In this document: one piece after another, positions 13,031 to 29,124 of the stretch
How the letters are laid out: each line of letters starts with the position of its first letter
Position numbering within the stretch: the first letter of the stretch is position 1
NCBI RefSeq assembly: GCF_019207025.1
Contig: NZ_JAEEGC010000035.1
Location: 16,772-80,771, forward strand
Direction: 5' to 3'
Length of the DNA: 64,000 nucleotides
Source: Clostridium thailandense
GTDB taxonomy: Bacteria > Bacillota > Clostridia > Clostridiales > Clostridiaceae
The notes under the pieces: model-generated
What the model was told of the DNA's origin: nothing
The model's input: the letters and a program-made list of their open reading frames with translations, nothing else
Databases searched by the model: none
Made by a program: the position numbers and the translations under genes

Positions 13031-13918
13031 TTATTCTATACAGCTTTTTTCTTTTAGATATGAAATAAAGTTGTGTACAGCAGGGGGAAAATATTTGTTT
13101 TTTCGGTATGCAAAATAAATACGCCTGCAATAATCCGGATTATTGATATGTAATTTTTTAACTTTAGCATCCTTAAGAGCAGGTGCTTCGGCTATAATAG
13201 ATACTCCAAAGCCTGCAGCAACTAAAGCACAAATAGCATATTCATCAGAGGCTTCGCAAATAACCTTTGGATCTAAATTGATACTTTTTAATAAATTAAA
13301 AGTGAATTTTCCGAGTCCAGAATTTTTATCATAAGCTACTAATGGATAAGGCTTAATTTCAATTAAGTCAATGCTATCAAATTTAGCAAGGGGATGATCT
13401 AGGGGAACAATGACAAATAATTCTTGTTCAATAATTGGAACAAAAGTAACATCAGGTTCATTTTCAACATAAGAGCAAAAAATTAAATCGTATTTATCCA
13501 TTTTTAGACCTTCCAGCATTTCGGCAGTAAATCCTTGTTTAAAGGTAAATGTAACATTCTTATTCTGTTCTAAATTTAAAAAACTACGTACTGTCTCAGG
13601 AATATAATATTGTGCTAGTGGAGAAATATATGCAATATCAACATGGCCTTCCGAGGTGCTAGCGAACTTTTCCATTATTTTTTTAGTATTATCTAACTCG
13701 CTAAGTATTCTATCTACATGCTCTAAAAATATACGACCATATTTAGTCAATATAACATTTCGACCTTGTTTATCAAATAAACATAAACCAAGTTCTGCTT
13801 CTAAGTTCGTCATAGAGTTACTTAAACTTGGTTGAGATATATTTAATTCTAAAGCTGCTTGCCTAAAGTGCTGCAATCGAGCAATAGTTCTAAAATAATA
13901 TAATTGATTCAAATTCAT
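13031..13918 (-). CDS. LysR-type regulator of hydroaromatic module A
   Basis: This 295-residue LysR protein has an N-terminal helix-turn-helix (LNQLYYFRTIARLQHFRQAA, then NISQPSLSNSMTNLE), a linker helix and a periplasmic-binding-like effector domain (about 90-290). ATG 13918 is chosen; an upstream TTG would overlap the GGAGG site. It is divergent from the shikimate-dehydrogenase/enoate-reductase genes starting at 14240. This is the standard LysR arrangement in which the regulator activates the divergent operon when its substrate, probably shikimate, quinate or a dehydro form, binds. A T-N11-A dyad lies 47 bp from its start. It is a paralog of the LysR at 20921. Confidence 0.88.
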   Translation of the reverse strand: MNLNQLYYFRTIARLQHFRQAALELNISQPSLSNSMTNLEAELGLCLFDKQGRNVILTKYGRIFLEHVDRILSELDNTKKIMEKFASTSEGHVDIAYISPLAQYYIPETVRSFLNLEQNKNVTFTFKQGFTAEMLEGLKMDKYDLIFCSYVENEPDVTFVPIIEQELFVIVPLDHPLAKFDSIDLIEIKPYPLVAYDKNSGLGKFTFNLLKSINLDPKVICEASDEYAICALVAAGFGVSIIAEAPALKDAKVKKLHINNPDYCRRIYFAYRKNKYFPPAVHNFISYLKEKSCIE

Positions 13919-13964
13919 AGGACAGTTTCCCTCCAAAATAGATTATAAGTATTATATCACATTC

Positions 13965-13981
13965 GATAGACAAAAACTATC
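13965..13981. promoter_or_regulatory. LTTR-box-like dyad in the LysR/aroE intergenic region
   Basis: GATAG-ACAAAAA-CTATC is a perfect 5-bp inverted repeat containing T-N11-A, the LysR consensus. It lies in the 321-bp divergent region 13919-14239, close to the regulator start, the usual place for an autoregulatory LysR site. No other convincing motif is seen in that region, which is very AT-rich. Confidence 0.5.
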
Positions 13982-14239
13982 AATAAAGTGGAAAACATGT
14001 ATTAGAATTATCAAAATTGTTGAATTATAATATAAATTAAGATGTGTTAAAAAAATAACTATTTTAAAATAATGACAAAACATAAACAAGCAAAGGGTTT
14101 TTTGTTGAAAAATGTTTTGCGATGTTTGATGATACTCATGAAGCTTCAATAAAAATTGCCTAAGTACTTAGGGATTAATTATTATACTTTAAGATAACGA
14201 TTACTATAAAAATATTATAAATAAAAAGGAGACATTATT

Positions 14240-15112
14240 ATGGGAGAAAGAATTACAGGACATACAGAACTTATAGGATTAATTGCATATCCAATCAGAC
14301 ATTCAAGTTCACCAGCAATGCACAATGAAGCATTTGCAAAATTAGGATTAGATTATGCGTATCTTGCCTTTGAAGTTGGTAATGAAGAGCTTGAAGATAC
14401 TATAAAAGGTTTTAGAGCAATGAAAGTACGTGGATCAAATGTATCAATGCCTAATAAAACAGTAGTACACAAATATCTTGATAATTTATCAGAGGCAGCA
14501 CAGCTTTGTGGAGCAGTTAATACAATTGTAAATGATAATGGCGTTTTAACTGGACATATTACTGATGGTATTGGATACATGCAAGCATTAAAAGATGCTG
14601 GTATTGATGTAATAGGTAAAAAGATTACAATTGTAGGAGCAGGTGGAGCAGCTACAGCAATACAAGTACAAGCTGCTTTAGATGGAGTAAAAGAAATATC
14701 AATCTTCAATCGTAAGGATGATTTTTATGCTCGTGCTGAAAAAACTGTAAAGGATATTAATGAAAAAACTAACTGTAAGGCAACTTTATATGACTTAGCA
14801 GACCTTGACAAATTAAAGGAAGAAATTAAGGATAGTTATGTATTTACAAATGCAACTGGCATGGGAATGAAACCTTTAGAAGGACAAACGTATGTTCCAG
14901 ATGCAAGCTTCTTAAGACCAGATCTAATTGTAGTAGATATTGTTTATTCACCAAGAGAAACAGCATTATTAAAAATGGCAAAAGAAGCAGGATGTAAAGC
15001 AATGAATGGCTTAGGAATGATGTTATTCCAGGGAGCAGCAGCTTTTAAACTATGGACTGGACAAGATATGCCAATTGAGCATATGAAGGAAGTATTAGAT
15101 ATTAAATACTAA
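14240..15112 (+). CDS. aroE: Quinate/shikimate dehydrogenase, YdiB-like (module A)
   Basis: This 290-residue AroE-fold enzyme oxidises or reduces the C3 hydroxyl of shikimate or quinate with NAD(P). The substrate site shows HSSSP, SNVSMPNK (catalytic Lys) and TDGIGY (catalytic Asp), and the nucleotide loop is GAGGAATAIQ. The sequence NRKDDFYARAEKTVKDIN and the C-terminal GLGMMLFQGAAAFKLWTG resemble E. coli YdiB, the NAD-capable quinate/shikimate enzyme, more than biosynthetic AroE. A separate biosynthetic AroE is at 30957, which supports a catabolic role. It is the first gene of module A, with a GGAG site 9 bases before ATG, and is followed by an enoate reductase 44 bp on. Confidence 0.9.
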   Translation: MGERITGHTELIGLIAYPIRHSSSPAMHNEAFAKLGLDYAYLAFEVGNEELEDTIKGFRAMKVRGSNVSMPNKTVVHKYLDNLSEAAQLCGAVNTIVNDNGVLTGHITDGIGYMQALKDAGIDVIGKKITIVGAGGAATAIQVQAALDGVKEISIFNRKDDFYARAEKTVKDINEKTNCKATLYDLADLDKLKEEIKDSYVFTNATGMGMKPLEGQTYVPDASFLRPDLIVVDIVYSPRETALLKMAKEAGCKAMNGLGMMLFQGAAAFKLWTGQDMPIEHMKEVLDIKY

Positions 15113-15156
15113 ATTATTTTTAGTTTACTATAAGTAAAAAAGCGGAGGTAAAAAAA

Positions 15157-17163
15157 ATGAAAGGCAAATATCCTAATCTTTTGTCACCAATCACTATCAA
15201 TGGAATGACATTGAGAAATAGAACAGTTATGCCACCCATCGGCAGTAACTTTGCTACTGTTAGTGCTGAAGTATCAGAAGAGATGATTAAATATTATGAA
15301 TTGAGGGCAAAAGGCGGTACAGGCCTTATTATCGTGGAGAACGCTTGTGTAGATTTCCCAATGGGAACTAATGGAACAAAGCAGTGCAGAATTGACGATA
15401 ATCAATATGTGCCTGGGCTTTATACCTTAGTAGAGAGACTTCACGCTTATGGAGCAAAGGTTTCTATCCAATTGAACCATGCAGGAGCATCTGCTTATGC
15501 AGCAAGACTAGGTGGCATGCAACCTGTTTCTGCTTCTAACATTCCTTCAAAGACAGGTGGGGCTATTCCAAGACCTTTAACTGTAGAAGAGATGAAAGGC
15601 ATCGCTAAAAAATATGGAGAAGCTGCAGCAAGAGCTCAGTTAGCAGGATTCGATTCAGTTGAAATTCATGCTGGACACTCATACCTTATCAACCAGTTTT
15701 TATCACCTTTATTTAATAACAGGACTGATGAATTTGGCGGAAGTGCTGAAAATAGAGCAAGATTTGCTGTAATGATTATTGATAGCGTAAGAGAGGCAGT
15801 AGGACTTAGATTTCCAATCTCCATAAGAGTTAGTGCTGATGATATGCTTAAGGGAGGAAATACTCTGGAAGATTCTCTAGAATTGATGGAATTCATGCAG
15901 GAAAAGGTAGACTTCCTAAACATTTCTGTAGGGCAAAATGATAATCTATATCTTCAACACGATAAAATGAGTTTAGCAGAAGGTTGGAGAAGTTATATGG
16001 CTAAAGCCTTTAAAGAAAAATTCAATAAACCAGTAATAACTTCAGGAAATATACGTTCACCAAAAGTTGCAGAAGAAATCATCTCAAAGGGAGATGCAGA
16101 TCTTCTTGCTATGGGACGTGGGTTAATTGCAGAGCCATACTGGGCTAACAAAGTTGCTGATGGACAGGAGCACCTTCTTAGAAGATGCATTTCGTGTAAC
16201 ATAGGATGTGCTGACCATCGTCTTGCGAAGTCCCAACCAATTCGCTGTAGTATCAACCCAGATCTCTTGTTCGAAGATTCTTATAAAGAGAAAAAGGTAA
16301 AGAAAGATATTAATGTTGTAGTTATCGGAGGAGGGACAGCAGGACTGGAGGCTGCATGTACTGCTGCAGAAGTAGGATGTAATGTAACATTATTAGAACA
16401 AAAAGATAGATTAGGTGGGTTAGCTTGGATGATCGGTACAATTCCAGCAAAAGGCAGAATTCATTATTTTGTAGAGTATTTAGAAAACAGAGTAAAAGAA
16501 CTTCCTAATTTGAAGATAAGACTTAACACAAAAGCTTCTGAGGAAATATTAGATGAACTAAATCCAGACCTTATAATAAATGCAACAGGATCAAAACCAC
16601 TGCTTCCCCCAATAGCAGGATTGTTAGATCGTGTAGACAAAGAAGCATCGAAAATCAAATCAATATTTGGATTTATTAATAATATTAGTTCTTTTGACAA
16701 AGAATGCAAAGGTAAAAAGGTTGTAGTTGTAGGCGGTGGAGCAGTAGGACTTGATGTTGTAGAATTCTTTGCTGAAAGAGGTGCAGATGTTTCAGTTATA
16801 GAAATGATGCCTGTAATAGGAAGAGATTTAGATACTAATACAAAGCTTGATGTATACCATATGATGAAAGAAAATAAGGTTAAGCAGCTTGCAAATACAT
16901 CACTTCTTAACGTTAATGATAGTTCATTTACAGTAAGAAATTCTGAAGGAGCTAGCGTAGATATAAGCTTTGATTATGGATTTGTATGCTTAGGAATGAA
17001 AGTAGAAAGTGCTGAGTTACCTAAAATTGAAGCATATGCAGAAGAAAAATGTATAAAACTTCTTAATATTGGAGATAGCGCAAAGGTAAGAAGAATAATA
17101 TCCGGTGTTGAGGAAGGCAGAAATGTAGTGAAAACTTTAGAAGTAATGGGCGCATTTAAATAA
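15157..17163 (+). CDS. 2-enoate reductase-type NADH:flavin oxidoreductase (module A)
   Basis: The 668-residue protein has the architecture of clostridial enoate reductase and dienoyl-CoA reductase. An Old Yellow Enzyme FMN barrel (1-340) has the HAGHSYLINQFLSP and NNRTDEFGGS motifs. A 4Fe-4S site has C344, C347, C351 and C364. An FAD/NAD(P)H half carries VIGGGTAGLEAA and VVGGGAVGLD. These enzymes reduce C=C bonds conjugated to a carbonyl or carboxyl group. Next to shikimate-pathway catabolic genes, the likely substrate is 3-dehydroshikimate, shikimate or a derived cyclohexene carboxylate; this is inference. RBS GCGGAGGT precedes ATG. A paralog is at 23121. Confidence 0.9.
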   Translation: MKGKYPNLLSPITINGMTLRNRTVMPPIGSNFATVSAEVSEEMIKYYELRAKGGTGLIIVENACVDFPMGTNGTKQCRIDDNQYVPGLYTLVERLHAYGAKVSIQLNHAGASAYAARLGGMQPVSASNIPSKTGGAIPRPLTVEEMKGIAKKYGEAAARAQLAGFDSVEIHAGHSYLINQFLSPLFNNRTDEFGGSAENRARFAVMIIDSVREAVGLRFPISIRVSADDMLKGGNTLEDSLELMEFMQEKVDFLNISVGQNDNLYLQHDKMSLAEGWRSYMAKAFKEKFNKPVITSGNIRSPKVAEEIISKGDADLLAMGRGLIAEPYWANKVADGQEHLLRRCISCNIGCADHRLAKSQPIRCSINPDLLFEDSYKEKKVKKDINVVVIGGGTAGLEAACTAAEVGCNVTLLEQKDRLGGLAWMIGTIPAKGRIHYFVEYLENRVKELPNLKIRLNTKASEEILDELNPDLIINATGSKPLLPPIAGLLDRVDKEASKIKSIFGFINNISSFDKECKGKKVVVVGGGAVGLDVVEFFAERGADVSVIEMMPVIGRDLDTNTKLDVYHMMKENKVKQLANTSLLNVNDSSFTVRNSEGASVDISFDYGFVCLGMKVESAELPKIEAYAEEKCIKLLNIGDSAKVRRIISGVEEGRNVVKTLEVMGAFK

Positions 17164-17359
17164 TTTAATTAATAGGCTGGATTTTTACATTCAGCCTCAC
17201 TTATGGATCATAATGGTTAATAAGTTAACAATGAAAAAGATAAAGTTATAGCAATATATATGCATTGTTATACGATGCAAAGCACTTTGTTTATATGAAG
17301 AAATTATTATATTAAATACAATTACATTATTTTAAGTAAAAAATAGAAGGAGAAAAGAG

Positions 17360-18574
17360 ATGAACAATAAAAAGAATTATTTTCCAACTGCATTAGCACT
17401 ATATTTTATATATTTTATACATGGTATCGGAGTATCAATTTTAGGTCAATATAAACAAAATTTTGCAGGTGGCTGGGGAGCTAAGACATTAGCTAATGGT
17501 ACTTTTGATGTAAGTGTGGTACTTGCTGTTATTGCGGCGCTAGGTTTAGGGCGCTTAATTACACTACCTATCTCTGGACCTTTTTCAGATAAATTTGGAA
17601 GAAGAGCTTCTGGATTAATCGGTATAGCTCTCTATGTAGCTTATTTTGTAGGTATAGCAGTTGCACCGAATATGTATATTGCTTATGCATTTGCATTAGC
17701 AGGTGGCGCCGCTAACTCTTTTTTAGATGTATGTATTATTCCATCATGCTTGGAAATATTCCCTAATGCTGGTGATGCTGCTAGTATGTTCACTAAATTT
17801 TCAATATCTATAGGACAGCTTTTACTTCCATTTATGATTGGATTTGTTGCAACAAATCATATGTCATATAAAACTATTTTCTTTATAACAGCTATATTAC
17901 TTGTTGTAACAGCTATATTAATTGCAATCCTGCCGTTTCCAGCAATGAATAACAATGCTAAGGTAGAAAAGGGTGAAGGTGAAGCTAAGAAAGAGAAAAT
18001 GAAATTTACAGCAACTAGTATTGCAGTTATTCTTATAGGATTTACATGTACATCAACATTTCAGTTATGGTTAAACTGTAATCAGGAATTAGGTAAATTA
18101 TATGGATTAGCGAAACCCGCTCAAATTCAATCATACTATGCAATGGGCTCAATAGTTGCAGTACTCGTAACAGCTCCACTTGTAAAAAGTTTCATTAAAC
18201 CAGTTAGAATTCTTGTTATTTATCCAGCAATTTCTACGATTATGCTTGCAGCTTTATACTTTATACAGTCACCGACAATGGTATTGGTGGGAGGATTTGT
18301 ACTTGGATATGCAGCGGCAGGTGGAGTACTTCAGTTGGCTGTATCAACAGCAAATACTATGTTCCCAACAAATAAAGGTAAGATTACATCTATTGTCATG
18401 ATTGCATCTAGTGTAGCGAACTATGTCATCCTGAATATTGCTAGTATGCTTACAAAAGCTGGTGGTGTGCAGGGACCAAAGTATGTACTTTTATTAAATA
18501 TAGCAATTACCGTTGTCGGTATTTTACTTGCATTGTTTGTAAATAATCAGTATGCAAAGGAAGCAGTAGCATAA
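17360..18574 (+). CDS. MFS transporter, probable hydroaromatic acid carrier (module A)
   Basis: This 404-residue, 12-helix major facilitator protein has the inter-helix 2-3 motif GPFSDKFGRRASG and a central cytoplasmic loop (about 196-215, rich in Lys/Glu). It is strikingly similar over its whole length to the MFS protein at 26225 in module B, including identical stretches such as SILGQYKQNFAG and STFQLWLNCNQELGKLYGLA. The pair therefore arose by duplication, probably with the adjoining enzymes. Shikimate or quinate uptake is inferred from position between the enoate reductase and aroD. A 196-bp gap with a small hairpin (AGGCTG...CAGCCT) separates it from the previous gene. RBS AGAAGGAG. Confidence 0.85.
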   Translation: MNNKKNYFPTALALYFIYFIHGIGVSILGQYKQNFAGGWGAKTLANGTFDVSVVLAVIAALGLGRLITLPISGPFSDKFGRRASGLIGIALYVAYFVGIAVAPNMYIAYAFALAGGAANSFLDVCIIPSCLEIFPNAGDAASMFTKFSISIGQLLLPFMIGFVATNHMSYKTIFFITAILLVVTAILIAILPFPAMNNNAKVEKGEGEAKKEKMKFTATSIAVILIGFTCTSTFQLWLNCNQELGKLYGLAKPAQIQSYYAMGSIVAVLVTAPLVKSFIKPVRILVIYPAISTIMLAALYFIQSPTMVLVGGFVLGYAAAGGVLQLAVSTANTMFPTNKGKITSIVMIASSVANYVILNIASMLTKAGGVQGPKYVLLLNIAITVVGILLALFVNNQYAKEAVA

Positions 18575-18732
18575 ATAATATCTGCACGATTTTATAACTA
18601 GCTAGTGGTAAAGAGCTAAGTTCTTTAACTTAGCTGTTGAAAATATATACATTGACTATTGCAAAAAAAATATGATTTAATAAGTTTAATATAAAATTGG
18701 AGAGCAATGTGTTTGTGAAAGGATGGATACTT

Positions 18733-19497
18733 ATGAAAAAAATAATCAAAGTTAAAAATGTTGAAATTGGTGAAGGATTACCAAAGATATGCGTGCCAAT
18801 AGTAGGTGAAACAGTTTCACAGCTTGTAGAAGAGGCTAATTTTTTAAAAGATCTTGATTTTGATGTTGTAGAATGGCGTGTAGATTTCTTTGAAGATGTT
18901 ACAAATATAGATAAGGTTAAAGAAGCATTACAACAAATTAGAACTATTTTATCTGATAAGCCTATAGTCTTTACCTTCCGTAGTGCTAAAGAAGGTGGAG
19001 AAAAAGAGATTGGTATAGAAGCTTATGTTAAATTAAATAAAATAATAGCTGAAACAAAGCTTGTTGAAATTATTGATGTTGAATTATTTAACGATGAGAA
19101 AGTTGTAAAAGAATTAATTGAAGCAGCTCATAAAAGTGGGGTAGCAGTTATTGTTTCTAACCATGATTTTGATAAGACACCAGCAAAGGAAGAGATAATA
19201 TCAAGACTACGCAAGGCACAGGAATTAGGTGGAGATATACCTAAGATTGCAGTAATGCCTACTTCAACTGAAGATGTGCTTACATTGTTAGATGCTACAC
19301 GTATTATGAATGAAGAATACGCAGATTGTCCTATTATAACAATGTCAATGGCAGGAAAAGGCGTAATAAGTAGAGTATCCGGTGAGTTATTTGGCTCTGC
19401 AGTAACTTTTGGTGCTGCTAAGAAAGCTTCTGCACCAGGTCAAGTTTCTGTAATAGATTTACGTAATACTCTTAAATTACTCCACAACAACATGTAA
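18733..19497 (+). CDS. aroD: Type I 3-dehydroquinate dehydratase
   Basis: This 254-residue (beta/alpha)8 enzyme interconverts 3-dehydroquinate and 3-dehydroshikimate through a Schiff base. Key residues are visible: E47 (EWRVD), R83 (TFRS), catalytic H144 (SNHDF) and Schiff-base K171 (IPKIAVMP). Type I enzymes catalyse syn elimination and are common in catabolic operons. ATG 18733 is used because AAAGGA lies 9 bases upstream; an in-frame TTG at 18697 has no such site. The location inside a quinate/shikimate catabolic cluster and away from chorismate biosynthesis genes supports a degradative role. A hairpin terminator follows. Confidence 0.93.
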   Translation: MKKIIKVKNVEIGEGLPKICVPIVGETVSQLVEEANFLKDLDFDVVEWRVDFFEDVTNIDKVKEALQQIRTILSDKPIVFTFRSAKEGGEKEIGIEAYVKLNKIIAETKLVEIIDVELFNDEKVVKELIEAAHKSGVAVIVSNHDFDKTPAKEEIISRLRKAQELGGDIPKIAVMPTSTEDVLTLLDATRIMNEEYADCPIITMSMAGKGVISRVSGELFGSAVTFGAAKKASAPGQVSVIDLRNTLKLLHNNM

Positions 19498-19501
19498 GAG
19501 T

Positions 19502-19538
19502 TTAGGCCGCAATAAATTTAAACTATTGTGGTCTTTTC
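19502..19538 (+). terminator. Terminator after aroD
   Basis: GGCCGCAATA pairs (with two wobbles) with TATTGTGGTC and is followed by TTTT. It separates aroD from the next MFS gene, so that gene may have its own promoter or rely on read-through. Confidence 0.7.
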
Positions 19539-19606
19539 ATAATAAAACCTATAGAACAACTCTATGAGTATAATAAAATTTGTATGTTTAAAACAGGAGG
19601 GAAGTT

Positions 19607-20830
19607 ATGATTAAAAATCCTTATTTTAAATCAGCAGCAGGAATATATTTAAGCTATTCTATGCTAGGAATGATACTTCTTATACTTTCATCCAATATGC
19701 CATTTTTAACTAAGCAATTTCATACAGATCCTGCAGGGATAAGTTTTTTAATTTCAATGGAAGGAACATGTCGTTCATTAACATTATATATTGCTGGAAG
19801 ATTATCAGATAAGTTTGGTAGAAAGAGATTTTTATTTTTAGCTCCGCTTTTTGCCATAGTATTTTTAGTTGGAATACCACTTTCGCCAACTTACCAGCTA
19901 GCTATGATAGTTTCAGTCTTTGCAGGAATATCACATGCATTTATGGATGCCGCAAGTTATCCTTCTTTAATAGAGTGTTTTCCAAAAACTCCTGGTACAG
20001 CAACTGTTATAATAAAGGCATTTGTAGCAATAGGGGGAATAATTTTACCAATTATTATAACCTTTTTTGTAAAAAGAAATATGTTTTACGGATATACATT
20101 TTATGTAGTAGCAGCATTGGGGGCTTTAGTTTTTATATTAATAGCCAGCAGCAGGTTTCCTGATGAAAATAGAACTAAAATTGTAAACAATGATAATGTA
20201 TTAGAAGATAAAAAATTTAAAGCTGAGCCAATACTAAAAAAAGAAGGCTTAGCACTTATAATAATAGGATTTACTTCTAATGCAACATTTATATTATTTC
20301 AAACATGGATTCCTACTTATGCTCAACATATTTTAGGTATGAGTCAAGTAAGTTCTTTAAAATTTATAAGCTATTATAGTACAGGAGCACTTGTTTCAGT
20401 GGGAATATTAGCAATACTTTTAAAGAAAACAGTTAAACCTGTGTTTATTACATTGATCTATCCTTTAATAGGCTTTATTTTACTTACAATACTATTGCTT
20501 TTCAAAACTCCAACAATTGCAACAATAGCATTTTGCTTAATAGGGATGTCTTCAGCAGGAGTATTGCAGATGGCACAAACCACAATGGGTGAACTCTTCT
20601 GGAAAAACAAAGGGGCAACAATAGCGCTAGTTTCTACTGCCAGTGGTGTAGCAGCAGCAGTAATCCCAGCTTTAACAGGTCTTATCTTAAGACATTATGA
20701 TATTTTACACGTGTTTTATTTTATGATAATTATATATACAGTAGGTATTTCATGTTCTGTTTTAGCGAATATAAGATATAAAAGAATTTATGGAAATGGA
20801 GAAGACAGCATCAGTGAGGAAGTTATATAA
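19607..20830 (+). CDS. MFS transporter (last gene of module A)
   Basis: This 407-residue, 12-helix MFS carrier has the GRLSDKFGRKRF motif between helices 2 and 3 and a charged central loop (about 185-210). It is related to, but clearly diverged from, the pair at 17360 and 26225 (shared features include GFTSNATFILFQTW versus GFTCTSTFQLWLN). It is probably a second hydroaromatic or product carrier: import of quinate versus shikimate, or substrate/product antiport, cannot be told apart. RBS CAGGAGGGA precedes ATG. It ends before a strong bidirectional terminator facing the second LysR gene. Confidence 0.83.
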   Translation: MIKNPYFKSAAGIYLSYSMLGMILLILSSNMPFLTKQFHTDPAGISFLISMEGTCRSLTLYIAGRLSDKFGRKRFLFLAPLFAIVFLVGIPLSPTYQLAMIVSVFAGISHAFMDAASYPSLIECFPKTPGTATVIIKAFVAIGGIILPIIITFFVKRNMFYGYTFYVVAALGALVFILIASSRFPDENRTKIVNNDNVLEDKKFKAEPILKKEGLALIIIGFTSNATFILFQTWIPTYAQHILGMSQVSSLKFISYYSTGALVSVGILAILLKKTVKPVFITLIYPLIGFILLTILLLFKTPTIATIAFCLIGMSSAGVLQMAQTTMGELFWKNKGATIALVSTASGVAAAVIPALTGLILRHYDILHVFYFMIIIYTVGISCSVLANIRYKRIYGNGEDSISEEVI

Positions 20831-20910: not shown

Positions 20911-20920
20911 TCTCCATATA

Positions 20921-21817
20921 TTAAAATAAATAATTACGGTTAGCATGTTCTATAGCAAAGTTTTTAAATTGATAAACGACTGGTGCTAGAAATTTATCTT
21001 TCATTACTGCTAAATAAAAAATTCTTTCAAAACTTGGACTTGTAATTTGAAGGACCTTTAAATTCATAAAATTTAATATAGGCATATTAGGGCAAACTGC
21101 AATTCCGAAGCTTTTGGAAACTAATCCAGCAATAACTTGGTCTTCTTCAATCTCATATATAATTTTTGGTTGTTCACCAATCTGCTCAAATAAATTATCA
21201 ATTATAGGTCTAAGCCCACTTGTGTGTGTAAAAAAGATTTGAGGATATGGAATAGTATCCACTAAATCAACTGTATCCTTATTTGCAAGGGGATGATCAG
21301 GTGGAACAATTAGTACCAGTTCCTGTTTTAAAATTGGTATAAACTCAACATGTTGTTCTTTGTCTAATTTAGAACAAAAGGCAATATCATATTTTCTTTC
21401 TTTAAGTCCTTGAATAATATCAGCAGAAGTTGCTCTGGTATGAAAGTGAAATTCGATTGACTTTTCTTGATTAGCTTGCAGAAAGCTTCGAGTAATTTCT
21501 GGAACAAAATCAGTTCCAAGTGTTCTAAGGAAAGCTAGGTCGATTCTGCCTTCTCCGGAGCTAATCATTTTTAAAGTTTTTGTACTTGAATCAAGGATTT
21601 CTAGAGACTTTACAATATCATCCAAAAATATTTTTCCGCATTTTGTAAGAACTACATTTCTTCCCTCTTTTTCAAATAGAGAAACTCCAAGCTCTTTTTC
21701 TAATAAGGATATAGCATGACTTAAACTAGGTTGAGTTATTAGTAACTCTTCTGCAGCCTTCGTATAGTGTTCCAAACGTGCAAGAGTTACAAAATAGCGC
21801 AAATGATATAAATTCAA
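20921..21817 (-). CDS. LysR-type regulator of hydroaromatic module B
   Basis: This 298-residue LysR protein has an N-terminal helix-turn-helix (LYHLRYFVTLARLEHYTKAA, then LLITQPSLSHAISLLE) and a LysR_substrate domain (about 88-290). It starts at TTG with AGGGT upstream. It is divergent from the module B operon beginning at 22093 and paralogous to the regulator of module A, which suggests that each module senses its own hydroaromatic ligand. The recognition helices differ in part (SHAISLLE versus SNSMTNLE), so the operators are probably not identical. Candidate dyads lie at 21956-21975 and 22006-22015. Confidence 0.88.
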   Translation of the reverse strand: MNLYHLRYFVTLARLEHYTKAAEELLITQPSLSHAISLLEKELGVSLFEKEGRNVVLTKCGKIFLDDIVKSLEILDSSTKTLKMISSGEGRIDLAFLRTLGTDFVPEITRSFLQANQEKSIEFHFHTRATSADIIQGLKERKYDIAFCSKLDKEQHVEFIPILKQELVLIVPPDHPLANKDTVDLVDTIPYPQIFFTHTSGLRPIIDNLFEQIGEQPKIIYEIEEDQVIAGLVSKSFGIAVCPNMPILNFMNLKVLQITSPSFERIFYLAVMKDKFLAPVVYQFKNFAIEHANRNYLF

Positions 21818-22015: not shown

Positions 22016-22092
22016 AATAAATAAGTTCAGCAAATAAAATGGAAAATGTTACAAAATAATTGCAGTTTTTTTAGGGGAAGGGAGCATATATT

Positions 22093-22983
22093 ATGAATAA
22101 AGAAGCTATGAAAAACACTTGTGAGGAGAAAAAAAATCAATGTCCACCAATTACAGTTAGTTCATGGACATTAGGAGATCAATGTAAATTTGAGGATAGA
22201 GTTAAAGCAGCAAAAGAAGCAGGTTATGATGGAATTGGTTTGCGTGCTGAAACCTATGTAGATGCGTTAAACGAAGGTTTGTTTGACGCTGATATCCTTG
22301 ACATTCTTAAGAGATATGATATGAAGGTTACTGAAGTTGAATATATTACACTTTGGGCTGAAGATAACCGTTCTTATGAACAAAAATACAAAGAACAATT
22401 ATGTTTCCATATGTGTGAATTATTTGGTGTTAACCATATCAATATTGGATTAATGGAAAACTACAGTGTAGAACATACTGCACAAAAGCTAAAAGAATTA
22501 TGTCAAAGAGCAGGAAAATATGTCATTGGTGTAGAGCCTATGCCATACAGTGGTATTCCAGATGTTAAAAAGGGTTGGGCAGTGGTTAAAGAATCTGGCT
22601 GTGACAATGCTAAGCTTATTTTAGATTCATGGCACTGGGTAAGAGCAGACCAGGAAACTGATATTAAATTATTAGAAGGTATTCCAGCTGACAGGATTGT
22701 ATCTATTCAAATTAATGATGTTTATGAAAGACCTTATGCAAAATCTATCTTAAGAGATGAATCAATGCATGATAGACTTGCTCCAGGTACTGGAATCAAC
22801 GCAACAGAAGGTTTTGTTAAAATGATTAAAGAAAAAGGTATAGAACCTGCATGTATTGGAGTTGAAGTAATAAGCGATGCTATTTTAGCAAAAGGTGTTG
22901 CTGAGGCAGCTAAATTTACATATGAAAATACTGAAAAGGTATTGAGAAAGGCTTGGCCAGAAGTATCTTTAGTGGAAAAATAA
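22093..22983 (+). CDS. Xylose-isomerase-like TIM-barrel protein, candidate 3-dehydroshikimate dehydratase
   Basis: The 296-residue protein belongs to the sugar-phosphate isomerase/AP-endonuclease 2 TIM-barrel superfamily. Likely divalent-metal ligands are spread through the barrel: Glu in IGVEPMPYSG, Asp and His in LILDSWHWVRA, Gln in VSIQINDV, and Glu in IGVEVIS. Bacterial QuiC/AroZ-type dehydroshikimate dehydratases, which make protocatechuate, have this fold and ligand set. The operon partners (shikimate dehydrogenase, enoate reductase, MFS) fit that reaction, but an isomerase or epimerase acting on a ring-derived intermediate is possible. The Cys-rich N-terminal extension (residues 1-18) is unusual. 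It is the first gene of module B, with RBS GGGAAGGGAG. Confidence 0.75.
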   Translation: MNKEAMKNTCEEKKNQCPPITVSSWTLGDQCKFEDRVKAAKEAGYDGIGLRAETYVDALNEGLFDADILDILKRYDMKVTEVEYITLWAEDNRSYEQKYKEQLCFHMCELFGVNHINIGLMENYSVEHTAQKLKELCQRAGKYVIGVEPMPYSGIPDVKKGWAVVKESGCDNAKLILDSWHWVRADQETDIKLLEGIPADRIVSIQINDVYERPYAKSILRDESMHDRLAPGTGINATEGFVKMIKEKGIEPACIGVEVISDAILAKGVAEAAKFTYENTEKVLRKAWPEVSLVEK

Positions 22984-23120
22984 CAAAATCGATTTTAATA
23001 AATTTATATAGAAAATAGAGCCGTTAACTTGCCATTTGTGAAAGATGGACTATTACGGTTAATAGTTTTAAATAAAATCAGGTATTATGTAAACTAAACT
23101 TGAAAGGATGATTTATTTTT

Positions 23121-25043
23121 ATGAAATTTGAATCTATGTTTACACCTATAAAAATAGGACCAATGACAGTTAAAAACCGTTTTGTAGTTCCACCTATGGG
23201 AAATAACTTTGCAAATACAGATGGAAGCATGAGTGATAATTCTGTAGCCTATTATCGTGAACGTGCAATTGGTGACTTTGGATTAATAACCTTTGAAGCC
23301 ACTGTTGTTGATAAAAAAGCTAAGGGAGGTCCACGTAAACCATGTTTATTTGAGGATAGTACTGTAGAAAGCTTTAAGCGTGTTATAGATGCTTGCCATG
23401 AGGCTGGTGCAAAAATATCTATTCAGCTTCAGCATGCAGGACCAGAAGGAAATGCAGCAGTTGCAGGATATCCATTAAAAGCTGCCTCTGCTATACCTTC
23501 AGTATTTGGAAGAAATACACCTATTGCTATATCTAAAGAAGAGATTTATGAGCTCATTGAGTCATATGGTGATGCAGCGGTACGTGCGAAGAAAGCTGGA
23601 GCAGATGCAGTAGAAGTTCATTGTGCCCATGGATATTTAGTCAATAGTTTTCTTTCACCAAGAACTAATAAACGTGTAGATGAATTTGGTGGATGTTTTG
23701 AGAATAGAATGCGTTTACCTCGTTTAATAATTGAAAATATCCGCAAGAAGGTTGGAGACTCTATGGCGATTATTTGTCGTATTAATAGCTCTGACGAAAT
23801 TGACGGAGGACTGGATGTTCATGATAGCGCAACAATCGCTGCTTATCTGGAAGAATGTGGAGTTGATGGCCTTCACGTTTCACGTGCAGTACATATCCGT
23901 GACGAATATATGTGGGCACCTACAGTATTGCATGCAGGATTTAGTGCGGAGCTGGTTACAGAAATTAAACGTGCAGTTAGCATACCTGTTATTGCAGTTG
24001 GACGTTTTACGGAACCACATTTTGCAGAATTATTAGTCCGTGAAGGTCGTTGCGATTTGGTTGCATTTGGACGTCAAAGTTTAGCTGATCCACATACACC
24101 AAGAAAAGCTAAAGAAGATCGCTTGGATGAATTAACTCCTTGTATCGCTTGCCTGCAGGGATGCGTTTGCAATATGTATCAGGGAAAACCAGTTAGCTGT
24201 CTTGTTAACCCATTTTTAGGACATGAGAATGAAGTGAAGGCAGCAGATACTAATAAGAAAGTAATAGTTGTTGGCGGTGGTGTTGGTGGTATGCTTGCAG
24301 GATGGGTATCCGCTATGAGAGGCCATGATGTAACTTTATTTGAAGCAACAGATACTCTTGGTGGACAGATGCGTTTAGCTGCTTACCCTCCAGGAAAAGG
24401 TGATTTAACGAACATGGTGCGTAGTTATATTACTAAATGTGAGCAACATGGAGTAAAGGTCTGTATGGACACAAAGGTAACTCCAGAAATTATTGCAGCA
24501 GAAGCACCTGATACAGTAATTATTGCTACTGGTGCAACACCATTAGTTCTTCCTATTCCAGGAATTAATGAAGCAGGGGTAATACATGCAGTAGATCTTC
24601 TTGATGGAAAAGAATCCTGCGGTAAAAAAGTCCTTGTTGTTGGAGGAGGAATGGTAGGGTGTGAAACTGCTGATTTCCTAGGAGAACAAGAGCATGAGGT
24701 TACAGTTATTGAACTTAGAGATGAAGTGGGAGCGGATGTAATTTCTGAACATCGAAAATTCTTAATGAAAAATTTTGAAAAATATAAAATTAAAACTGTT
24801 ACAAATGCCAAGGTTGCAGAGTTCTTTAAAGATGGTGTAGCTTATACAATGCCAGATGGATCAGAACATCGTCTTGAAGGCTTTGATTCAATAGTGCTTG
24901 CTATGGGATCACGTGCATATGATCCACTTAGTGAAGATGTTAAAAAAGTTGTAAAGGAAACTTATGTCATTGGTGATGCTGTTAAAGCACGTAGAGCATT
25001 GGATGCAACAAAGGAAGCTTTAGAAGTTGCAATGAAAATATAG
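23121..25043 (+). CDS. 2-enoate reductase-type NADH:flavin oxidoreductase (module B)
   Basis: This 640-residue paralog of the module A reductase has an FMN barrel (1-335) with VEVHCAHGYLVNSFLSP and NKRVDEFGG. The iron-sulfur site has C341, C344, C348 and C360 (an extra C350 is present). FAD and NAD(P) folds follow, with VVGGGVGGMLAG and VVGGGMVGCETA. The reaction would be NADH-dependent reduction of an activated C=C bond. Divergence between the two reductases in the cluster suggests different substrates or products rather than a simple copy. A 137-bp gap with a weak hairpin separates it from the TIM-barrel gene. RBS GAAAGGATG precedes ATG. Confidence 0.9.
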   Translation: MKFESMFTPIKIGPMTVKNRFVVPPMGNNFANTDGSMSDNSVAYYRERAIGDFGLITFEATVVDKKAKGGPRKPCLFEDSTVESFKRVIDACHEAGAKISIQLQHAGPEGNAAVAGYPLKAASAIPSVFGRNTPIAISKEEIYELIESYGDAAVRAKKAGADAVEVHCAHGYLVNSFLSPRTNKRVDEFGGCFENRMRLPRLIIENIRKKVGDSMAIICRINSSDEIDGGLDVHDSATIAAYLEECGVDGLHVSRAVHIRDEYMWAPTVLHAGFSAELVTEIKRAVSIPVIAVGRFTEPHFAELLVREGRCDLVAFGRQSLADPHTPRKAKEDRLDELTPCIACLQGCVCNMYQGKPVSCLVNPFLGHENEVKAADTNKKVIVVGGGVGGMLAGWVSAMRGHDVTLFEATDTLGGQMRLAAYPPGKGDLTNMVRSYITKCEQHGVKVCMDTKVTPEIIAAEAPDTVIIATGATPLVLPIPGINEAGVIHAVDLLDGKESCGKKVLVVGGGMVGCETADFLGEQEHEVTVIELRDEVGADVISEHRKFLMKNFEKYKIKTVTNAKVAEFFKDGVAYTMPDGSEHRLEGFDSIVLAMGSRAYDPLSEDVKKVVKETYVIGDAVKARRALDATKEALEVAMKI

Positions 25044-25097
25044 TATTAAAACTTTTAAAATAAAGAAAGAAAAATTAGCTTTATGGGGGAGATAATT

Positions 25098-25967
25098 ATG
25101 GAAAAACGTATTTCAGGAACTACAGGTTTATTAGGATTAATAGGTACACCAGTAGGTCATTCAAAATCACCAGTTATGTATAACTACAGCTTTCAAAAGC
25201 TAGGATTGGATTATGCATATTTAGCATTTGATATACCAGTTGAAAAAGTGCCAGATGCAATTGAAGCTATAAAAACTTTTAATATGAGAGGTTCAAATGT
25301 AACAATGCCATGTAAAGGTGAAGTTACTAAATATATGGATGAACTATCTCCAGCTGCACGTATTATTGGAGCAGTTAACACAATAGTTAATGACAATGGA
25401 AAATTAACTGGGCATATAACAGATGGCATCGGATTTGTACGTAATTTAAAAGAAAATGGAGTAGAAATAAAAGGTAAAAAAGTTACTATCATGGGCGCTG
25501 GGGGAGCTGCAACAGCTATACAAGTTCAATGTGCCTTGGATGGAGCAAAGGAAATTTCTATCTTTAATGTAAAAGATGATTTCTATGTAAAGGCTGAAAA
25601 AACTGTTGAAAACATAAAAAAGGAAGTACCAGAATGCATTGTTAATTTATATGATTTAGAAGATGATCAAAGGCTTAAAGTAGAAGTTGCATCAAGTGAT
25701 ATTTTAATTAATGGTACACTTGTAGGAATGCACCCACATGAAGATAAAACAAATATAAAAGATACAACCATCTTCAGAAAAGACTTAGTTGTAGCAGATG
25801 TAGTATACAATCCAAAGAAAACAAAATTTTTAACAGATGCAGAAACTGCAGGATGTGAAACAATTGGTGGACTGGGAATGCTGTTATGGCAGGGTGCTGA
25901 AGCTTTTAAGCTGTATACTGGATTAGAAATGCCTGTAGAAGAAGTTAAAGAATTGTATTTTAAATAG
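25098..25967 (+). CDS. aroE: Quinate/shikimate dehydrogenase, YdiB-like (module B)
   Basis: This 289-residue AroE-fold dehydrogenase is paralogous to 14240-15112. It shows GHSKSP, SNVTMPCK (catalytic Lys, with Cys in place of Asn before it), TDGIGF (Asp) and the nucleotide loop GAGGAATAIQ. The C-terminus, GLGMLLWQGAEAFKLYTG, matches YdiB closely. The position after the second adenosine-binding strand reads FNVKDDF where module A has FNRKDDF. Losing that Arg would favour NAD over NADP, which is an inference. ATG 25098 lies 6 bases after GGGGGAG; an ATG at 25083 overlaps that site. It follows the enoate reductase by 54 bp. Confidence 0.9.
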   Translation: MEKRISGTTGLLGLIGTPVGHSKSPVMYNYSFQKLGLDYAYLAFDIPVEKVPDAIEAIKTFNMRGSNVTMPCKGEVTKYMDELSPAARIIGAVNTIVNDNGKLTGHITDGIGFVRNLKENGVEIKGKKVTIMGAGGAATAIQVQCALDGAKEISIFNVKDDFYVKAEKTVENIKKEVPECIVNLYDLEDDQRLKVEVASSDILINGTLVGMHPHEDKTNIKDTTIFRKDLVVADVVYNPKKTKFLTDAETAGCETIGGLGMLLWQGAEAFKLYTGLEMPVEEVKELYFK

Positions 25968-26033
25968 TTTAGATAAGTTTGTCATATACCAGAATAAGTT
26001 TTTTATTGATGATAATATATCAAAAACTACCAA

Positions 26034-26058
26034 TGGGTTGGAGTATAATTCCAACCCA
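26034..26058 (+). other. Hairpin in the aroE-MFS gap of module B
   Basis: TGGGTTGGA pairs perfectly with TCCAACCCA over a 7-base loop and has no T-run after it. It lies in the 257-bp gap before the MFS gene. It may stabilise the upstream mRNA or attenuate expression of the carriers. Confidence 0.5.
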
Positions 26059-26224
26059 ATTATTGGATTATATTATTATGCCCATTCCTGCACCATTAAG
26101 AGTTAAGAATTTAACAAGAGAGCTTATTTATAATGAAAAATATAATATGATTATTGTACAGTAAAAAGTCATTAGTTTAGACATAATGAGACATATAGAT
26201 GAATAAAGAGAGGAGAAAAAATAA

Positions 26225-27427
26225 ATGAATAATAAAAAATATTATCCAACGGCTTTGGCATTATATTTTACTTACTTTGTACATGGTATAGGGGTATCAA
26301 TTTTAGGACAGTACAAACAAAATTTTGCAGGTGTTTGGGGAGCAAAAACTCTAGCAAATGGTACTTTTGATGTAAGTATAGTACTTGCTGTTATTGCTGC
26401 ATTAGGTTTAGGGCGTCTAATTACACTTCCTTTTTCAGGTCCTATTTCGGACAAATTTGGAAGAAGGATTTCTGGATTAATTGGTATTGCTTTATATGCA
26501 GCTTACTTTATTGGAATTGTATTATCACCAAGTATGTATGTGGCGTATATGTTTGCGCTATTAGGAGGTGCAGCTAACTCGTTTTTAGATACATGTGTTA
26601 CTCCATCGTGTTTGGAGATATTTGTAAACTCTGGTGATGTCGCTAACATGTTCACTAAATTTTCCATATCAATGTCGCAATTTTTACTTCCATTCATTAT
26701 TGGTTTTGTCGCAGGAAATGGAATGTCATATAAAGCTATTTTCTTTGTAACAGCTGCGTTACTTATTATAGATGGTATTTTGATTGCATTTATGCCCTTC
26801 CCACCAATGAACACTAGTGTGTCAAAAGGAGAAGCTAAAACAGTAAAAGAAAAAATGAAATTTACACCAACAAGTATTGCAATCATTCTTATAGGGTTTA
26901 CATGTACATCAACATTTCAGCTGTGGTTAAATTGTAATCAGGAATTAGGTAAATTATATGGACTAGCTAAGCCAAGTCAAATTCAGTCATATTATGCAAT
27001 GGGATCAATCATAGCTGTACTAGTAACAGCAGCTTTAGTAAAAAGCTTTATTAAACCAGTTAGAATACTAGTTATATATCCTACACTTGCTACAATTATG
27101 CTAATGATTATATATTTTATACAGACACCAACTATATGCTTAATAGGCGGATTTGTAATTGGATTCACCGCAGCAGGTGGTGTACTTCAGCTGGCAGTAT
27201 CAACAGCAAATTCTATGTTTCCTACAAATAAAGGGAAAATTACATCTATAGTTATGATTTCATCTAGTGTAGCAAATTATGTTATCTTAAATATTGCTAG
27301 TATAATTACAAAGTCTGGTGGAGTACAGGGACCCAAATATGTGCTTTTATTCAACGCAGTAATTACTATTGTAGGTATTCTTCTTGCATTGTTTGTAAAT
27401 AGACAATATGCAAAGGCGGCAATGTAA
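26225..27427 (+). CDS. MFS transporter, probable hydroaromatic acid carrier (module B)
   Basis: This 400-residue, 12-helix MFS protein is near-identical in long stretches to the carrier at 17360. It starts MNNKKYYPTALALYF and keeps the GPISDKFGRRISG motif and the STFQLWLNCNQELGKLYGLA segment. The central loop is a few residues shorter. The strong conservation suggests a recent duplication or selection for the same substrate, probably shikimate or quinate. RBS AGAGAGGAG precedes ATG. It is followed after 39 bp by a second MFS gene of a different subfamily. Confidence 0.85.
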   Translation: MNNKKYYPTALALYFTYFVHGIGVSILGQYKQNFAGVWGAKTLANGTFDVSIVLAVIAALGLGRLITLPFSGPISDKFGRRISGLIGIALYAAYFIGIVLSPSMYVAYMFALLGGAANSFLDTCVTPSCLEIFVNSGDVANMFTKFSISMSQFLLPFIIGFVAGNGMSYKAIFFVTAALLIIDGILIAFMPFPPMNTSVSKGEAKTVKEKMKFTPTSIAIILIGFTCTSTFQLWLNCNQELGKLYGLAKPSQIQSYYAMGSIIAVLVTAALVKSFIKPVRILVIYPTLATIMLMIIYFIQTPTICLIGGFVIGFTAAGGVLQLAVSTANSMFPTNKGKITSIVMISSSVANYVILNIASIITKSGGVQGPKYVLLFNAVITIVGILLALFVNRQYAKAAM

Positions 27428-27466
27428 GATATATACTAAGTTTAATTAAAATTTGGAGGGAGAATA

Positions 27467-28771
27467 ATGGAACAAAACAATTTAGGTGGTTTAGGGACTA
27501 AACCAACCCAAAAACGATGGTTTGTACTTTTTCTAGTATGCTTAATAACTTTTGTAAATTATTTAGACCGTGCAAATCTTGCAGTGGCTGCTCCTTTCTT
27601 ATCAAAGGATCTTAGATTAAATGCTGCGATGATGGGGGTTATATTTTCTGCTATGGGATGGTCATATACTATTATGCAGATTCCTTGTGGATGGCTCCTT
27701 GATCGATTCGGACCTAGGCTAATATACGGAGTTGCGCTTGTGGGATGGTCACTTATTACTACAGCTATTTCTATTTCATCTGGTTTCCGGAGCATGATTG
27801 CTTTTAGACTTGGTCTTGGATTTTTTGAAGCTCCAGCATTTCCAGCAAATAATCGTATTGTTACTGCATGGTTTCCTTCTAAGGAGCGTGGTTTAGCTAT
27901 TGGTGCGTATACTGGAGCTGAATATATAGGACTTGCCCTATGTACACCTATACTTACCTGGCTTCTAATAAAATTTGGGTGGAGGTCTATTTTTATTACC
28001 ACTGGTTTAATAGGAGTTGCATGTGCTTTTATTTGGTTTGCAGCTTATCATGATCCAGCAAAGTTTAAAGGAGTTAATAAAGCAGAACTTGATTTAATTA
28101 AAAAAGGTGGAGGACTCTCAGATACTGTTGTTGAACAGAAGAAAGTTACTTGGAAAGAGATGAAATATCTATTCAATAGTCGTCAGTTATGGGGAATGTA
28201 TATAGGTGGTTTTGCTAATGCTGCTATCCTTTTTTTCTTTATGACATGGTTTCCATCTTACCTTGTAAGTGAAAAGCACATGGCTATTATAAAGGTTGGA
28301 ATTTATGGAGCGTTACCTTATTTATCGGCAATTGCAGGGGTTCTTATAGCTGGAAAGTGGTCAGATTGGATGATTTCTAAGAAATATAGTTTGGGAATGG
28401 CTCGTAAACTTCCTGTTATTGTTGGGTTGTTACTTGCCTCTGTAATTATAGGAGCCAACTATAGTAATAATGTTAACGTTGTTATTACTTTTATGTGTAT
28501 AGCATTTTTTGGACAAGGAATGGCATCAGCTATTACCTGGGCTTTGTTGTCTGAGATAGTTCCAAAGGAGCTAGTTGGGTCATGTGGTGGAACTTATAAT
28601 TTTATAACTAATTTAGGAGGAACCTTGTCTCCAGCTATAGTTGGATATCTTATTGCAACAACTGGATCTTATGCAGCGGCCTTAGTATTTGTTTCTTCTA
28701 TGGGACTTCTAGGAGCATTTTCTTACATATTTATTATAGGAAAACCTTCACGTATTTTAATTCCTGATTGA
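27467..28771 (+). CDS. MFS transporter of the anion:cation symporter (ACS) type
   Basis: This 434-residue, 12-helix carrier has the ACS-family signature in helix 1 (FVNYLDRANLAVAAPFL) and the helix 2-3 motif GWLLDRFGPRLIYG. This subfamily imports organic anions such as galactonate, glucarate, phthalate or vanillate with protons. Next to module B it is a good candidate for uptake of an aromatic or hydroaromatic carboxylate or export of protocatechuate. It is unrelated in detail to the other three MFS proteins in the cluster, so module B has two carrier types. RBS TTGGAGGGAG precedes ATG. Confidence 0.86.
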   Translation: MEQNNLGGLGTKPTQKRWFVLFLVCLITFVNYLDRANLAVAAPFLSKDLRLNAAMMGVIFSAMGWSYTIMQIPCGWLLDRFGPRLIYGVALVGWSLITTAISISSGFRSMIAFRLGLGFFEAPAFPANNRIVTAWFPSKERGLAIGAYTGAEYIGLALCTPILTWLLIKFGWRSIFITTGLIGVACAFIWFAAYHDPAKFKGVNKAELDLIKKGGGLSDTVVEQKKVTWKEMKYLFNSRQLWGMYIGGFANAAILFFFMTWFPSYLVSEKHMAIIKVGIYGALPYLSAIAGVLIAGKWSDWMISKKYSLGMARKLPVIVGLLLASVIIGANYSNNVNVVITFMCIAFFGQGMASAITWALLSEIVPKELVGSCGGTYNFITNLGGTLSPAIVGYLIATTGSYAAALVFVSSMGLLGAFSYIFIIGKPSRILIPD

Positions 28772-28836
28772 TTATATACAGATACTCAAAATTAAGTAAT
28801 ATATAAAAACTTGTTTTAAGAGAGGAGAATTTAAAA

Positions 28837-29124
28837 ATGATAAAAGTTGTGGCAAAAAGTTATGTTATGGAAGGTAAATTTGAAGAGTACATGAATTTAT
28901 GCAAAAAGTTAGTTGAAAAAACGAGGGAAGAAGAAGGATGCATAAAATATGAGGTATATCAAGATGAAAAATGCTCTACAGTATTGACGATTATTGAAGA
29001 ATGGGAAAGCAGGGAAGCCCTAGATAAGCATATGGTATCAGAGCATTTTAAAAGAATAGTTCCTATACTTGGTAAGTTTAGAGCAAAACAATCCGATGTA
29101 AATGTATACAATAAGGTGATTTAA
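28837..29124 (+). CDS. Antibiotic biosynthesis monooxygenase (ABM/YgiN-like) domain protein
   Basis: This 95-residue ferredoxin-like ABM-fold protein has the typical pattern KTREEEGCIKYEVYQD, then EEWES, then DKHMVSEHF. Members include quinol monooxygenases (YgiN), heme-degrading enzymes and small isomerase-like proteins; many use no cofactor. In a strict anaerobe an O2-dependent reaction is unlikely, so a role in handling quinones, protocatechuate-derived catechols or a non-oxidative reaction is more plausible. RBS AGAGAGGAG precedes ATG. It follows the ACS carrier by 65 bp and probably ends module B. Confidence 0.8.
   Translation: MIKVVAKSYVMEGKFEEYMNLCKKLVEKTREEEGCIKYEVYQDEKCSTVLTIIEEWESREALDKHMVSEHFKRIVPILGKFRAKQSDVNVYNKVI

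Follow-up and report, generated by a model that had tools for sequence, protein, structure and literature searches.

Reduction of quinate and shikimate to dihydroxycyclohexanecarboxylate by Lactobacillus plantarum is known from classical work, and we know of no genes assigned to this route. Aerobic catabolism of the two compounds runs via protocatechuate (the qui, qsu and qa systems), and the qui1 and qui2 operons of Listeria monocytogenes are, we assume, induced by shikimate. Genes for a CoA ligase and a 7-alpha-dehydratase are among those of the bai operon for bile acid 7-alpha-dehydroxylation. As set out in an excerpt of PMC11574389, that operon provides for an oxidation and a hydroxyl elimination, after which BaiH and BaiCD reduce two double bonds. 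Here we compare with these systems an island of ~16 kb, predicted to degrade plant quinate and shikimate, in a 64,000-nt window of the Clostridium thailandense genome (6.48 Mb in 261 contigs; window at positions 16772 to 80771 of its contig); the window is the whole stretch of DNA analyzed, and all coordinates are its own. The island consists of two gene runs, with a QuiR-like LysR gene in divergent orientation next to each. Module 1 (LysR1, SDH1-OYE1-MFS1-AroD-MFS2) and module 2 (LysR2, DSD-OYE2-SDH2-MFS3-MFS4-ABM protein) combine shikimate/quinate dehydrogenases (SDH), Old Yellow Enzyme-type ene-reductases (OYE) and MFS carriers with AroD in the first run and a QuiC2-like dehydroshikimate dehydratase candidate (DSD) in the second. 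We propose, with a probability of roughly 45%, that the dehydratase of each run makes a ring enone, that the paired 4Fe-4S ene-reductase removes it, and that the ring is likely used as an electron sink. The island would then represent a known qui gene set under a new functional reading, with the reductases as its core.

Both gene sets of the island, including both Fe-S flavin reductases, were found in Listeria-type genomes (L and G numbers are our labels for loci and genomes). The set LysR-QuiC2-OYE2-SDH2-MFS-MFS occurs at 11 loci with an OYE2 73 to 76% identical to that of the window (76% in a named L. monocytogenes). LysR-OYE1-SDH1-AroD was read at three loci (L218, L219 and L221), and OYE1 orthologues (59 to 62%) were present in 7/7 Listeria-type genomes tested. 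The dehydratase of L129 is, by eye, the 2g0w sequence, and nine further loci are termed Listeria-type by likeness. The window shares the features of such systems as far as sequence can indicate them: a predicted QuiR-type LysR divergent to each run, one set with AroD and SDH, and one with a putative QuiC2-type enzyme and SDH. It differs in that the two sets form a single island, to which MFS4 and the ABM protein are added, and in its DSD, only 52 to 55% identical to the Listeria-type copies. The first-pass annotation had described two LysR-led blocks, each with a dehydrogenase, an FMN/Fe-S reductase and MFS carriers, with AroD in one and a TIM barrel in the other, and had likened this quinate/shikimate island to the Listeria qui operons. 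All of the genes that it named are intact open frames at the coordinates in Table 1, Pfam and NCBIfam matches bore out the two blocks, and the resemblance held when gene order was compared in Listeria-type loci.

SDH1 and SDH2 (57% identical) score above cut-off in shikimate dehydrogenase models of NCBIfam and have the shikimate dehydrogenase 3tnl as top PDB match, followed by YdiB-type entries. Both LysR proteins match Lmo0488 best, which we take to be the shikimate sensor QuiR. DSD aligns over nearly its full length with Lmo2234 (2g0w; E 8e-93, 55% over 277 columns) and is 94% identical to its counterpart in Clostridium carboxidivorans and 91% identical to the C. magnum and C. drakei proteins, so that the host likely belongs to their group. 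A profile of 33 DSD relatives matched, after 2g0w, IolI (1.5e-15) and QuiC 5hmq (6.3e-6), the latter ranking under several repeat-protein matches of no bearing. The AlphaFold model (pLDDT 92) is nearest to 2g0w, then to 5hmq and 1i60, with AsbF 3dx5 at rank 23. All 33 relatives have Glu148, Asp178 and Glu258, which fit, by residue spacing alone, the AsbF metal ligands Glu142, Asp172 and Glu253 given in an excerpt of PMC9324987. Membership in the two-domain QuiC family was rejected (NF042435, 23.3 bits versus a cut-off of 1200; DSD has a single domain). DSD is thus best regarded as a candidate member of the QuiC2 class of dehydroshikimate dehydratases, and Lmo2234 is probably QuiC2.

In both OYE1 and OYE2, an Oxidored_FMN domain is fused to a Pyr_redox FAD/NAD domain, and both have a His/His/Tyr site and four cysteines for the Fe-S cluster; by these domain and residue features, both are predicted Fe-S Old Yellow Enzyme flavoenzymes. 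His171, His174 and Tyr176 of OYE1 are 96 to 100% conserved in its clade, where the Fe-S cysteines are invariant, and H167, H170 and Y172 together with C341, C344, C348 and C360 are conserved in OYE2. The two proteins are 33% identical to each other, and OYE2 keeps the loop residues R255, H258, D261 and E262, whereas OYE1 does not. Their closest solved relative is 6qkg "NCR", presumably 2-naphthoyl-CoA reductase. Among NCBIfam models, BaiCD scores best for the two proteins; assignment to this equivalog was rejected at 468.1 (OYE1) and 550.3 bits (OYE2) against a cut-off of 825. The host encodes 13 Oxidored_FMN proteins at E 1e-20. In a tree from which OYE1 and OYE2 frames of 600 aa or less were left out, and in which the host's 11 other OYEs were the only outgroups, OYE2 (62 sequences, support 0.996) and OYE1 (26 sequences, support 1.0) formed separate clades, with those 11 proteins outside both. 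An OYE2-labelled frame of L020 (33% identity) also fell outside the OYE2 clade. Elsewhere in the host, contig C201 (L171 and L172) carries four OYE-type genes in ~30 kb, two of them adjoining.

We compared the distribution of DSD and OYE2 across genomes, scoring the best six candidates per genome in the family sample and the best three in the phylum sample. In the family sample, DSD was present in 12/194 genomes and OYE2 (at least 79%) in exactly the same 12, adjacent in 12/12; the next OYE2 match dropped from 79% to 44%. In the phylum sample, the 4/398 genomes with DSD were again those with OYE2 (at least 61%, the next match falling to 48%), the two genes being adjacent in two genomes and separated by one gene in the other two. 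OYE2 therefore goes with DSD in both directions in these samples. The order sample contained DSD in 38/395 genomes, 26 of which were extended; G873 and G797 each have two copies, and there the divergent one alone was covered. Named loci (66) come from one scan of genome contigs with the dehydratase, and 33 of 34 regions taken from further genomes are dehydratase loci. Among 100 DSD frames, a number that includes duplicates (e.g., L031 and L143) and cut loci, OYE2 lay no more than 2.5 kb downstream in 60 and at another place in the locus in 4, one of which (L052) counts there merely through overlap of the DSD and OYE2 frames; a short-chain dehydrogenase/reductase (SDR) took the downstream position in 24 and lay elsewhere in 4. 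OYE2 adjoins DSD or lies one gene off in the gut genera Blautia, Anaerobutyricum, Dorea and Megasphaera as well as in Listeria. OYE2 (73 to 80%) is better conserved than the dehydratase (52 to 58%) in only 15 of the 64 loci with both genes, all of them Listeria-type, C. difficile or related clostridial. A match to OYE1 at E 1e-120 was found in 24 of 40 genomes. C. ljungdahlii has a single run, AroD-SDH1-OYE1-QuiC2-OYE2-SDH2, with transporters and two alpha/beta hydrolases, and C. ragsdalei has AroD-SDH1-OYE1-QuiC2-OYE2 in one row; both orders are close to that of the reactions proposed below. The gene association exceeds chance, as dozens of loci hold parts of the set together. No copies were found on viral contigs among the close relatives, and the 29 plasmid records comprise 28 from Ligilactobacillus and one from Listeria.

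Streptococci, Gemella, Aerococcus and lactobacilli (REPLACEMENTS) mostly have the SDR, of ~280 aa, right after the dehydratase. Its best models are generic, among them meso-2,3-butanediol dehydrogenase and trans-4-hydroxycyclohexanecarboxylate dehydrogenase. AroD (at least 42%) was present in 16 of 27 loci with the SDR (at least 50%), and a gene of C=C-reductase type accompanied it in 16/16, compared to 1/11 SDR loci without AroD; Fisher values for such counts take no account of common ancestry. This gene is OYE1 in L126 and otherwise a relative of the OYE + FMN_bind + FAD_binding_2 protein of L040; some relatives, as seen in L136 and L224, consist of FMN_bind and FAD_binding_2 only. The L040-like genes were found by tblastn, with Pfam run on those of L040, L050, L136 and L224, and in L044, L046, L047, L056 and L062 the match is truncated by the locus end or lies near it. 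The reductase gene adjoins AroD or SDH1 in 11/16 (L044, L046, L047, L050, L051, L053, L056, L058, L126, L136 and L138). On plasmid pMP118 of Ligilactobacillus salivarius UCC118, a LysR gene and dehydratase-SDR-FAD reductase-SDH-AroD form one block, spanning LSL_RS09885 to LSL_RS09910. Lactiplantibacillus herbarum (L062), a relative of L. plantarum, has a dehydratase-SDR-SDH-SDH-MFS run, close to which lie SDH1, AroD and a gene of reductase type. Lactic acid bacteria thus have the SDR and other flavin reductases in the places of OYE2 and OYE1, and the dehydratases often retain a neighboring redox partner while the enzyme families change.

A route with these enzymes can be drawn, its substrates, products and electron donor all being predicted. 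SDH would oxidize C3 of quinate or shikimate, and AroD would convert 3-dehydroquinate to 3-dehydroshikimate, an enone and thus a plausible type of OYE substrate. OYE1 would then reduce C1=C2 of 3-dehydroshikimate, leaving a ring unable to aromatize, from which the QuiC2-like enzyme could drop the 5-hydroxyl to give 4-hydroxy-3-oxocyclohex-4-ene-1-carboxylate, a diosphenol (the enol of a 1,2-diketone). Reduction of this second enone by OYE2 would yield 4-hydroxy-3-oxocyclohexanecarboxylate or an isomer. A diketone-reducing SDR could replace OYE2 with the same product or an isomer, which would explain the exchange of OYE2 and SDR between loci. Finally, SDH1 or SDH2 would reduce the C3 ketone to 3,4-dihydroxycyclohexanecarboxylate, identical to the end product of the L. 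plantarum route. If NADH served throughout, one would be gained and three spent, a net removal of two NADH per ring. We put forward only tentatively the specific claim that this is a bai-like reductive dehydroxylation of quinate and shikimate to 3,4-dihydroxycyclohexanecarboxylate, acting as an NADH sink, with the Listeria qui operons as members. The likeness to bai is one of logic only. In that operon, as excerpted in PMC11574389, a hydroxyl elimination is flanked by two Fe-S flavoenzymes that share the architecture of OYE1 and OYE2, whereas the dehydratases and dehydrogenases of the island are of shikimate-pathway and not of Bai type; Pfam placed no island protein in the Bai CoA ligase or 7-alpha-dehydratase families. 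With the aerobic protocatechuate route the island shares the dehydrogenase, the AroD-type dehydratase and the candidate dehydroshikimate dehydratase, but it has two ene-reductases, and its dehydratase is a single-domain, Lmo2234-like protein rather than a two-domain QuiC. Pfam found no protocatechuate dioxygenase among the island proteins, the part of the genome searched for one.

Several points weigh against this ring-reduction route. It assumes that the dehydratase acts on a ring already reduced at C1=C2, and aromatization to protocatechuate would be expected to leave OYE2 without a substrate. We take protocatechuate formation to be the role of the Listeria qui operons, and QuiC2 is reportedly a dehydroshikimate dehydratase (so the title of Xue 2020). 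The host genome also encodes a VdcC-type hydroxyarylic acid decarboxylase C subunit (772.9 versus a cut-off of 650), which fits a fate of protocatechuate as catechol. Neither OYE2 nor SDR was found in the locus of 8/100 DSD frames, of which seven belong to a divergent group (51 to 55%) with other neighboring genes, while the one of L013 lies on a short contig. OYE1 is tied to the set less tightly: a C. difficile genome (G596), G537 and G585 have OYE2 and no OYE1 match at E 1e-120, and neither SDH nor AroD was matched in L052 and L055, which hold both reductases, or in L043, which holds OYE2. The SDR, for its part, is under cut-off in all 25 models shown, i.e., generic.

Some of these points would be accommodated by parallel branches (a dismutation), in which the QuiC2-like enzyme leads to protocatechuate and on to catechol with release of NADH, and OYE2 reduces part of the 3-dehydroshikimate to dihydroshikimate-type products, reusing the NADH. 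The published name of QuiC2, the presence of QuiC 5hmq and AsbF 3dx5 among the structural neighbors of DSD, and the decarboxylase all agree with it, and strict pairing of DSD and OYE2 is equally expected at a shared branch point, so that the pairing is explained about as well as by sequential ring reduction. We nevertheless consider parallel branches unlikely, since they leave the second ene-reductase, in the AroD module, without explanation, and since a redox enzyme is also retained next to the dehydratase in lactic acid bacteria, whose NADH has other sinks.

A second alternative is that OYE1 and the L040-like enzymes handle hydroxycinnamates, reducing caffeate from chlorogenate while the island degrades the quinate half. 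One of the two alpha/beta hydrolases that end the C. ljungdahlii run has a BD-FAE domain (4e-63), presumably of a feruloyl esterase family, and an alpha/beta hydrolase also lies between SDH1 and AroD in L046, L047 and L056. With such esterase-type genes present in several runs, caffeate may be a substrate of OYE1, a further point against ring reduction. The OYE/FMN_bind/FAD_binding_2 architecture is, we believe, that of NADH-linked cinnamate reductases. By Pfam, however, no esterase gene lies in the island of the window, L218 has the LysR-OYE1-SDH1-AroD set with no extra gene of at least 150 aa between its members, and OYE2 is tied to the dehydratase, that is, to the ring side; we regard this alternative as improbable. 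That OYE1 and OYE2 are general NADH oxidases or protective reductases with no ring substrate, as the annotation of some close relatives as "NADH oxidase" or "FAD-dependent oxidoreductase" might suggest, is very hard to reconcile with co-inheritance with the dehydratase, dedicated clades and the presence of 11 other host OYEs for general needs.

Returning to ring reduction as the preferred interpretation, the co-inheritance of OYE2 with DSD in the sampled genomes means that a pure dehydration route leaves the reductases unaccounted for, as the first-pass annotation had argued; reduction of the ring itself is our inference. Its further suggestion of an undescribed clostridial pathway of hydroaromatic respiration or fermentation fared less well. 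Both reductases occur in Listeria-type qui sets, with analogues in streptococci and lactobacilli, and are therefore not peculiar to clostridia. Respiration was dropped as a reading because Etf, Rnf and quinone-linked Pfam families are absent from the island proteins other than the LysRs, eleven in all; an electron sink of a soluble, fermentative kind is the better fit. In the open-access literature, the scope of our search, no OYE-type reductase assigned to quinate or shikimate was found.

Coffee and other plants deliver quinate to the gut. According to the portion of PMC11602726 (2024) that treats the subject, the enzymes of gut quinate breakdown are mostly not known, and oxidation to protocatechuate or reduction to hexahydrobenzoate has been proposed. 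If the reading of the island is correct, it provides candidate genes for the route by which bacteria of gut and food reduce quinate, calls for a reinterpretation of the Listeria qui operons, whose main product has so far been read only as protocatechuate, and implies that the hosts gain a dietary electron acceptor.

Table 1. Genes of the C. thailandense island, with window coordinates, strand and principal matches
Feature	Position	Strand	Match
LysR1, predicted QuiR-type regulator, divergent to module 1	13031..13936	-	5ted Lmo0488 top PDB match, E 1.3e-46
SDH1, YdiB-type shikimate/quinate dehydrogenase	14240..15112	+	NF001313, 547 versus cut-off 431; 3tnl, E 2e-138
OYE1, predicted FMN/4Fe-4S/FAD-type ene-reductase, 668 aa	15157..17163	+	Oxidored_FMN, 1e-73
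MFS1 carrier	17360..18574	+	MFS_1
AroD, type I 3-dehydroquinate dehydratase	18733..19497	+	TIGR01093, 263.9 versus cut-off 139.3
MFS2 carrier	19607..20830	+	MFS_1
LysR2, predicted QuiR-type regulator, divergent to module 2	20921..21817	-	5ted Lmo0488 top PDB match, E 2.4e-55
DSD, QuiC2-like dehydroshikimate dehydratase candidate	22093..22983	+	AP_endonuc_2 TIM barrel; 2g0w Lmo2234
OYE2, predicted FMN/4Fe-4S/FAD-type ene-reductase, 640 aa	23121..25043	+	Oxidored_FMN, 5.5e-79
SDH2, YdiB-type shikimate/quinate dehydrogenase	25098..25967	+	NF009200, 551 versus cut-off 432
MFS3 carrier, MFS1 paralogue	26225..27427	+	MFS_1; clusters with MFS1
MFS4 carrier	27467..28771	+	MFS_1; best NCBIfam TIGR00893, 372 versus 395, under cut-off
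ABM-domain small protein, possible accessory	28837..29124	+	PF03992, 1.5e-21

In Table 1, the ATG at 18733 was taken as the start of AroD (longest frame from 18697) and that at 25098 as the start of SDH2 (longest frame from 25083). A relative of the ABM protein lies directly 3' of DSD in L009 and L014. Judging from orientation and spacing, the two runs are probably operons. A promoter and terminator scan gave counts not above those of shuffled sequences (66 versus 80.3 and 7 versus 7.2, respectively), so we claim no operon ends, and Rfam gave no match at gathering score in the region from 12500 to 32500. A palindrome upstream of the dehydratase, TATAAAATCTATA, recurs in L003 and L139 to L142, with a near-copy in the window by eye; it was not listed for L002, L004, L005, L066 or four scanned Listeria-type loci, and its reading as a LysR box was dropped.

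The host genome has three Shikimate_dh_N genes, all inside the window: SDH1, SDH2 and an AroE-type gene (30957 to 31763) that adjoins a shikimate kinase gene. A second, weak shikimate-kinase-like protein is encoded at 29605 to 30081 (SKI, 38.8 bits versus 142.4 for the neighboring kinase); its phosphate-binding loop appears altered by eye, and it is perhaps a degenerate or repurposed copy. Past the aro genes, two adjoining radical SAM genes lie at 35310 to 37496, and the minus strand at 46256 to 47476 encodes a Fer4_5 + FMN_bind protein of membrane electron-transfer type. The genome also encodes a CdhC-family (acetyl-CoA synthase type) protein, which makes the host likely an acetogen.

Other genes were noted at the compared loci. 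Divergent dehydratases (51 to 55%) lie outside qui context in L120, L121, L124, L125, L127, L133 and L134; in L125 and L134 the dehydratase follows a permease-like gene, and the opposite strand of L134 carries what by eye is a lipoprotein-like flavoprotein. Between dehydratase and OYE2 of L043, from an Eggerthellaceae metagenome-assembled genome, a gene of 266 aa (10917 to 11717 of that locus) appears TIM-barrel-like by eye and has no NCBIfam match at 1e-10. A gene of chorismate-mutase/shikimate-kinase type (Pfam on L017) is present in the dehydratase loci L009, L013, L015 to L019, L041 and L066, and perhaps channels imported shikimate to biosynthesis. A membrane-protein-like gene of ~450 aa occurs in 15/66 clustered loci, among them L044 (14140 to 15486 of that locus), whose copy is without Pfam match, and TRAP-transporter-like genes, recognized by eye from sequence starts, form three clusters that span 9 to 11 loci.

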